Positions 59,391-60,855 of a stretch of DNA of 64,000 nt are shown piece after piece (positions within the stretch are counted from its first letter, which is position 1; each line of letters opens with the position of its first letter). The position numbers and the translations under genes were made by a program. Under the pieces are notes generated by a model that was not told where the DNA came from, searched no databases, and was given only the letters and a program-made list of their open reading frames with translations. This stretch comes from Amycolatopsis sp. 2-15 (GTDB taxonomy: Bacteria > Actinomycetota > Actinomycetes > Mycobacteriales > Pseudonocardiaceae). The DNA lies in contig NZ_CP127294.1 of the NCBI RefSeq assembly GCF_030285625.1, positions 5,483,501 to 5,547,500 on the forward strand, read 5' to 3'.

Positions 59391-59887
59391 CCGGCAGCCG
59401 GGTCGGGCGCCAGGCTCGCATCACGGAGCTGGTGTCCACGATGGCCATCCGCAGCCAAACCGAGCTCGCCAAGCTGCTCGCGGCCGAGGGCATCGAGGTC
59501 ACGCAGGCGACGTTGTCGCGCGACCTCGACGAGCTCGGCGCCGTGAAGCTGCGCGGCGCCGACTCGGGGGCGCCGGTTTACGTCATCCCCGAGGACGGCA
59601 GCCCGGTGCGTGGCGTGCAGGGCGGTACGTCGCGGTTGTCCCGGCTGCTCGCGGAACTGCTCGTCTCGGCCGACGCGTCCGGCAACCTCACCGTTTTGCG
59701 CACGCCGCCCGGCGCCGCGCAGTTCCTCGCGAGCGCCATCGATCGCGCCGCGTTGGAAGAGGTCGTCGGCTCCATCGCCGGCGACGACACGGTCGCCGTC
59801 ATCGCCCGGGAACCCTTGAGCGGCAGGGATCTGGCGGAGCGGTTCACCGCGCTCGCCCGGCGCTCGGCGGAGGGCGAGGAGCTGTGA
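59387..59887 (+). CDS. argR: Arginine repressor
   Basis: ArgR, 166 aa, the arginine-dependent repressor of the operon. The N-terminal winged helix reads RQARITELVSTMAIRSQTELAKLLAAEGIEVTQATLSRDLDELG. The C-terminal oligomerisation and arginine-binding domain has GAAQFLASAIDRA and the acidic GDDTVAVIAR motif that contacts arginine. It likely binds the dyads over the argC promoter. ATGA overlap with argF; its stop overlaps the argG-like start. Confidence 0.96.
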   Translation: MTGSRVGRQARITELVSTMAIRSQTELAKLLAAEGIEVTQATLSRDLDELGAVKLRGADSGAPVYVIPEDGSPVRGVQGGTSRLSRLLAELLVSADASGNLTVLRTPPGAAQFLASAIDRAALEEVVGSIAGDDTVAVIAREPLSGRDLAERFTALARRSAEGEEL

Positions 59888-60855
59888 CCACCGTCCTCGC
59901 CTACGCCGGTGGCACGGCCGCACTGGCCCGCCTCGCGCGGGAGACGGACGTGGTCACGGTCTCCGTCGATCTCGGCGCGGGCGACGTCGACCTCACGGCG
60001 CTGCGGGAGCGGGCCCTCGCGGCCGGCGCGGCGGAGGCGATCGTCGTCGACGCGCGCGCCGAGTTCGCGAACCAGCACTGCCTGCCCGCGCTGCAGGCCA
60101 ACGCGCTGCTGTACGACCGCTACCCGCTCGTCGGGTCGCTGGCTCGCCCGCTGATCGAGAAGCACGTGACCGCGATCGCCCGTGCTCACGACGCCGAGGT
60201 CGTCTGGCCACGTGAACAGGGCGGAAAGCTGTCGCCCGACCGCACGCTCTGGGGCCGCGCCGTCGTGGTCACCGATCCCGATCCGTGGCACGGACCCGGC
60301 GACGTCTTCGCCTACACCGAGGACGCCGCGGTCAACATCGACGCGCCCGACGAAGCCGTGATCACGTTCGACCGCGGCGTGCCGGTGGCCGTCGACGGCG
60401 AGACGGTGACTGTGGCCGAGGCCGTGCTGCGGCTTGGGCATCGTGCCGGCGCCCACGGCGTCGGCCGCTTCGACCTCGCCATGGACAACCGGGAGATCTA
60501 CGAAGCCCCCGGCGCGTGGGTGCTGATCACCGCGCACCAGGAGCTGGAGAACCTGACCCTGGACCGGGACCTGGCCCGGTTCAAGCGCTCAGTGGACCGG
60601 CGCTGGACCGAGCTCGTCCACGACGGGCTGTGGTCCTCGCCGCTGCGCGAGCCGCTCGACGCGTTCGTGCGGCACAGCCAGGAGCACGTGTGCGGCGACG
60701 TCCGGTTGGTGTTCCACGGCGGCACCGCCGTCGTCACCGGTCGCCGCGGCGAAGAGCCCGCCGGACGCGGCAGGCACCTGCACCCCGTCGGCCGGCGGTA
60801 CCGTCCCCTGACCGGGCAGGAGCACCCGGACCACCCGACCCACCGGGCGTCGTGA
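59884..60855 (+). CDS. Degenerate argininosuccinate synthase homologue
   Basis: A 323-aa protein in the argG position, clearly homologous to argininosuccinate synthase (normal length about 400): VVDARAEFANQHCLPALQANALLYDRYPLVGSLARPL in the N half, then TLWGRAV, APDEAVITFDRGVPVAVDG, REIYEAPGAWVLITAHQELENLTLDRDLARFKR and GDVRLVFHGGTAVVTGRR. Two active-site parts are gone. The ATP loop SGGLDTS is replaced by AGGTAALA. About 55 residues after HDAEVV, including the citrulline/aspartate/ATP-binding segment usually written GCTGKGNDQVRFE, are deleted. The C-terminus is also changed. The frame is intact, with GTGA coupling to argR. It is probably not an active synthase; a working argG elsewhere, or a new role, is implied. 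Confidence 0.85.
   Translation: MTTVLAYAGGTAALARLARETDVVTVSVDLGAGDVDLTALRERALAAGAAEAIVVDARAEFANQHCLPALQANALLYDRYPLVGSLARPLIEKHVTAIARAHDAEVVWPREQGGKLSPDRTLWGRAVVVTDPDPWHGPGDVFAYTEDAAVNIDAPDEAVITFDRGVPVAVDGETVTVAEAVLRLGHRAGAHGVGRFDLAMDNREIYEAPGAWVLITAHQELENLTLDRDLARFKRSVDRRWTELVHDGLWSSPLREPLDAFVRHSQEHVCGDVRLVFHGGTAVVTGRRGEEPAGRGRHLHPVGRRYRPLTGQEHPDHPTHRAS

Follow-up and report, generated by a model that had tools for sequence, protein, structure and literature searches.

Type I and type II argininosuccinate synthases (ArgG), gene displacement and pseudoenzymes are all well-established subjects, and they meet at the locus described here, an open reading frame (ORF) of 323 amino acids (aa) at 59884..60855 (plus strand, stop codon included) in the 64,000-nucleotide (nt) stretch of the Amycolatopsis sp. 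2-15 genome that was analysed (contig NZ_CP127294.1, positions 5,483,501 to 5,547,500; hereafter the window). The ORF is a relic of the usual actinobacterial, or type I, ArgG (NF001770/TIGR00032; structures 4u7j/4xfj) and thereby a member of the ArgG-fold superfamily, although it has no ATP loop and no citrulline/aspartate segment, carries a new tail and scores under the family cut-offs. The E. coli-type (type II) ArgG (NF003779), which presumably supplies the argininosuccinate synthase activity of this genome, is complete, unlike the relic, and the two types are only 31–33% identical. The nitrile synthetase ArtA (9leh, 9lei; compare argG_rel, NF038212) is an enzyme according to its record title, whereas the relic lacks the ATP loop. 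Bacterial pseudoenzymes such as pseudokinases (PMC12599244) and pseudo-receivers (PMC12632262) are reported likewise to be homologues retained without catalytic residues; here, by contrast, the catalytic domain itself has been deleted again and again, and what stays behind at the operon position is part of a single domain. No account of ArgG being reduced repeatedly within its operon to one conserved portion of its C-terminal domain (C-domain) was found in the literature searched, which comprised listings and abstract openings with most subscription journals outside its scope. The best reading of the relic and its relatives, which we hold with slightly better than even confidence, is a family of translated pseudoenzymes that has more than once been pared down to a portion of the ArgG C-domain.

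The relic matches the Pfam profiles Arginosuc_synth (residues 3–107, E 8.8e-26) and Arginosuc_syn_C (PF20979; residues 117–290, E 1.1e-53), and each of the six NCBIfam models that it matches scores it under the curated threshold (for example, for equivalog cut-offs, 238.6 against 334 and 213.9 against 268.2). The former ATP loop (59899..59928, +) reads AYAGGTAALA where AYSGGLDTS is expected, so that the SGGLDTS motif of active argininosuccinate synthases is missing. Also absent, by sequence alignment, is the GCTGKGNDQVRFE segment of active enzymes, which we take to be the citrulline/aspartate segment; it was lost with the residues that follow it at a junction at 60190..60240 (+). The relic, a homologue without catalytic residues, is almost certainly a dead enzyme, and its sequence rules out the alternative of an active one. 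An initial annotation of the window had described an ORF in the argG slot with ArgG similarity and a changed ATP loop, kept in the arg operon and coupled to argR through GTGA, all of which stands: the GTG start overlaps the argR stop. It had also supposed that about 55 residues were deleted cleanly. The size was right, since against full-length Amycolatopsis ArgG some 50 residues are lost in two gap blocks at and beyond the GCTGKGNDQVRFE region, besides smaller gaps; 'cleanly' was wrong, given that intermediate stages of the loss are found in relatives G001 (360 aa) and G055 (353 aa). The new C-terminus that it noted is real (residues 287–323; 60742..60852, +) and is predicted to be disordered, with a predicted local distance difference test score (pLDDT) below 50. 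Its claim that the frame holds no stops or frameshifts is true of the stops but probably fails in the last ~37 codons, because the tail DNA can be aligned to the native 3' end only by admitting gaps that break the frame.

Catalysis is apparently provided for elsewhere, as that annotation had anticipated. The window genome is a single contig of 10.05 Mb, rated 100% complete, and contains exactly two matches to PF00764, namely the relic and a complete type II ArgG of 483 aa about 2.6 Mb away; a genome with no other argG, the second finding that would have told against that annotation, is thereby excluded. A PF00764 match occurs in all 80 genomes of the genus, and each of the 58 that hold a remnant (below) has a type II match, the kind being judged in relatives by score and profile range and by reading the sequence for the window genome copy alone. 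Two genomes, G084 and G052, carry additional ArgG-like PF00764 genes elsewhere (E ~1e-59 to 1e-60), and a further ArgH-like match (46% identity) occurs in G084.

We read the argR–argH interval in the 79 Amycolatopsis genomes in which argH was found (G002 had no match at the cut-off, and so no slot). Full-length type I ArgG occupies it in only eight, and in one further genome (G042, L103) a type II ArgG has replaced it in place. Twelve have no remnant. The remaining 58 hold a remnant, open in every case: 15 are of the window type (320–360 aa in 14 genomes, while G054 has its start displaced), two measure 298 aa, 17 measure 117 aa and 24 measure 84–113 aa. An assembly error or single-strain deletion, the outcome that would have undone the initial annotation, is ruled out by the 15 genomes with the window-type form; relatives with full-length genes at the slot exist, but the reduction is not unique, and smaller forms are in fact commoner (43/79 with the 298-aa pair, 41/79 without). 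On a slot tree built from argR and argH, whose support values were not examined, the 117-aa form makes one clade of 17 tips together with G008, which has lost it; the window type makes a second, of 15 tips, sister to G009 and G073 (lost); and the 84–113-aa form makes a third, of 24 tips plus G044 and G094 (lost), in which the 298-aa form branches basally. Because they are placed in different clades, the 117-aa and 84–113-aa forms most likely arose separately. In G008 (L055) the slot contains a 19-codon ORF that apparently joins the two ends of the 117-aa form (VTPD and YDFSTGATVDRSVA), a near-complete in-frame deletion.

The small forms have a common core. When one representative each of the 117-aa and 84–113-aa forms and of those from genera g24, g35 and g50 (see below) was aligned to full-length ArgG, 56 positions (205–207, 215–250 and 335–351) were retained in all five, against a mean of 1.0 and a maximum of 34 in 20000 circular shifts. 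In all five the ATP domain is nearly all gone, as are positions 260–266; positions 311–331 are gone in three and retained in g35 and g50. In the relic the conserved core is a beta hairpin and helix (AVITFDRGVPVAVDGETVTVAEAVLRLGHRAG; residues 158–189, 60355..60450, +), and two strands (GDVRLVFHGGTAVVT; residues 271–285, 60694..60738, +) make a second piece that all five small forms retain. The motif GVPVAIDGETV is near-invariant.

That the frame is open says little by itself about the relic, because other frames at the locus also contain long, overlapping ORFs, and the initial argument that a lack of stops speaks against a pseudogene was correspondingly weak. The conclusion that selection acts on the protein rests instead on the codon comparison which that annotation had proposed. 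Codon maximum likelihood on a fixed tree, for 14 window-type genomes (G054 left out for its displaced start), 17 of 117 aa and 24 of 84–113 aa, gave ratios of nonsynonymous to synonymous change (omega) of 0.142, 0.168 and 0.137 respectively for the whole ORF, and of 0.040 (45 alignment columns), 0.089 and 0.056 for the hairpin-helix core. A neutral process forbidding stops only, simulated on the same trees, yielded 0.62–0.98 for the window type (20 runs), 0.40–1.13 across the two groups of small forms (144 runs) and 0.24–1.31 for the three cores (144 runs), so that all observed values lie below every null run. Changes at codon positions 1 and 2 are rarer than at position 3 (ratios 0.38–0.56), the reverse of the null, in which position 3 is slowest. 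Hence the amino acids of the relic are under purifying selection, strongest in the beta-hairpin-helix unit of the C-terminal domain, and the neutral codon evolution of a decaying pseudogene is seen at most in the tail. Selection in the window-type group is not confined to the core, since the former ATP domain (columns 16–105) is also constrained (omega 0.132, null 0.60–1.31, 48 runs). In the 84–113-aa form a rebuilt helix is conserved (omega 0.108) and 11 of 92 comparable columns are fixed for residues not found in the full-length and 298-aa forms; by these comparisons it has apparently acquired new sequence that was subsequently held. Synonymous sites inside the core are about as variable as elsewhere, which disfavours an RNA or DNA element there.

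These rates make it quite probable that the remnant is translated and that its amino acid sequence is what selection preserves, and likely that its function lies outside catalysis; the C-domain core would then have a use needing neither catalysis nor ligand binding. The type I ArgG of the operon is dead by sequence, in a genome whose complete ArgG is the type II copy elsewhere, and several lineages have lost much of what lies outside the core through in-frame deletions, reaching forms of 84–178 aa with the same 56 positions. Our best guess is that the remnant, translated from the shared message immediately before ArgH, would serve as a small structural partner and might bind ArgH (or ArgR) and aid assembly or local enzyme clustering; that ArgH in particular is the partner is a guess, and a doubtful one. 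Only a little less tentative is the broader proposal that, in actinobacterial ArgG, the C-domain core serves a further purpose independent of catalysis (ArgH or ArgR docking, for example) that was exposed once type II ArgG took over, the gene then being independently whittled to a new family of 84–178 aa proteins.

Several observations count against a translated pseudoenzyme. The remnant is dispensable, five of the 12 genomes that have none (G008, G009, G073, G044 and G094) lying within the wider remnant clade. Its omega is several-fold that of argR and argH, and pairwise dN/dS, the one estimate made for the 298-aa pair, exceeds the maximum likelihood value (0.21–0.35 in the large groups, 0.42 in that pair, compared with 0.02–0.07 for argR and argH of the same groups). 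The window-type tail is near neutral (omega 0.42, null minimum 0.48, 48 runs), as are positions 76–88 of the 84–113-aa form (omega 0.754, likelihood ratio test 1.2, not different from 1). The 117-aa form is modelled with no more than moderate confidence (mean pLDDT 73), and the circular-shift null takes no account of alignment bias or deletion mechanics. Outside Amycolatopsis, the omegas of g24, g50, g37 and g41 stand without a simulated null, the hairpin core is lost in G270, G280 and G203, which kept other pieces, the long ArgG remnant of G307 (L169) has an internal TGA, and the G116 remnant is a scrap.

The alternative that survives best, though we think it unlikely, is that the ORF is translated for coupling and that selection merely keeps its product foldable or non-toxic, each lineage arriving at the smallest piece that folds. 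This accounts jointly for the coupling, for the arrival of different lineages at one compact beta-sheet unit and for omegas of moderate size; however, whole-ORF loss has occurred, so that long retention (17/18 and 24/26 tips in two clades) needs another reason, and the near-invariance of GVPVAIDGETV appears, from its conservation, to exceed what upkeep of a fold would need. It is more improbable still that only translation through the old slot matters, for argR–argH coupling or avoidance of polarity, the protein itself being junk. The geometry of the slot fits this: the open remnants start 4 or 11 nt ahead of the argR end in 57 of 58 cases (the exception being the displaced G054, whose longest ORF, of 388 aa, starts with TTG 37 nt after argR), all either overlap argH or stop no more than 40 nt short of it, and where the remnant is gone the gap is at most 81 nt, with ORFs of 19–22 codons in G009, G073 and G008. 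Yet neutral amino acids are then predicted, whereas the omegas for whole ORFs (0.137–0.168 for the three groups) lie below the null, change at codon positions 1 and 2 is slower than at position 3, the reverse of the null, and the core shows about as much synonymous variation as the rest. ArgG oligomers involve the C-domain, and a type II match accompanies every Amycolatopsis remnant, as would suit a pseudo-subunit or regulator of the type II enzyme encoded elsewhere; the low identity between the types and the existence of genomes with type II and no remnant make this a poor candidate. A sensor of arginine or citrulline, the ligand sensor of the initial annotation, can be set aside as highly improbable: although a mycobacterial ArgG was crystallised with arginine by the title of 4xfj, the aligned small forms lack, or have only broken versions of, the parts with presumed binding roles: the citrulline/aspartate segment, the ATP loop and most of the loop at ~254–266.

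Remnants extend to other genera of the Pseudonocardiaceae. A search with PF20979 matched at least 295 of 297 family genomes, and slots were read in 79 of them from 22 genera, part of a longer list and picked for having no full-length type I match among those listed, so that the rates that follow are not family rates. Remnants were found in g24 (6/6, 88–89 aa), g50 (3/3, 178 aa), g35 (2/3, 149–151 aa, a kind also present between argR and argH in two Kutzneria genomes), g32 (3/3, 211–291 aa), g37 (9/12, 67–322 aa), g38 (2/3, one a scrap) and g41 (7/12, plus two end pieces in G203). A type II ArgG itself occupies the slot in g20, g25, g44, g49 and g52 (8/8 sampled) and in 5/8 g21 genomes, and the slots read in the remaining genera contained no type I remnant. 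Reductions within g35, g32, g37 and g41 look independent, because among the matches listed those genera also hold full-length type I genes, independence here being judged from genus labels and junctions and not from a tree. The positions of full-length matches outside Amycolatopsis were checked at L116–L118 (L114–L118 examined of 32 loci), which are ordinary argR-argG-argH arrangements. Omega is 0.101 in g24 (core 0.033), 0.158 in g50 (0.055), 0.206 in g41 (0.086) and 0.224–0.245 in g37 (0.053–0.067). Some lineages are plainly decaying and others hold a stable small protein. In G115, G326 and G152 (L192, L184, L185) the argR–argH interval is 1.5–1.8 kb and holds a stretch just 34–36% identical to type I ArgG.

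Together these loci offer a graded natural series (about 400, 360, 330, 298, 178, 150, 117, 85, 19 and 0 residues) in which a single enzyme gene is shorn, at its original position, of its catalytic portion; with parallel lineages ending at the same selected unit, it becomes possible to test what portion of a metabolic enzyme has a role beyond catalysis. Public names conceal this: where the source gives one, remnants of 91–117 aa (among P0122–P0160) are mostly called 'argininosuccinate synthase', and two 117-aa remnants are called 'adenine nucleotide alpha hydrolase family protein' though that domain is gone, so that pathway models may put ArgG at the wrong locus.

The neighbours of the relic, all on the plus strand and bearing names that we take from their sequences, are argF (ornithine carbamoyltransferase, 58464..59390), which has an ATGA overlap with argR (arginine repressor, 59387..59887), and argH (argininosuccinate lyase, 60881..62296), which starts 25 nt downstream of the relic stop. 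Further upstream, right ahead of an argD-like gene, the end of an ArgB-like frame is a tandem repeat rich in proline, at ~57150–57262 (+; PEPTPNPEPTPNP...).
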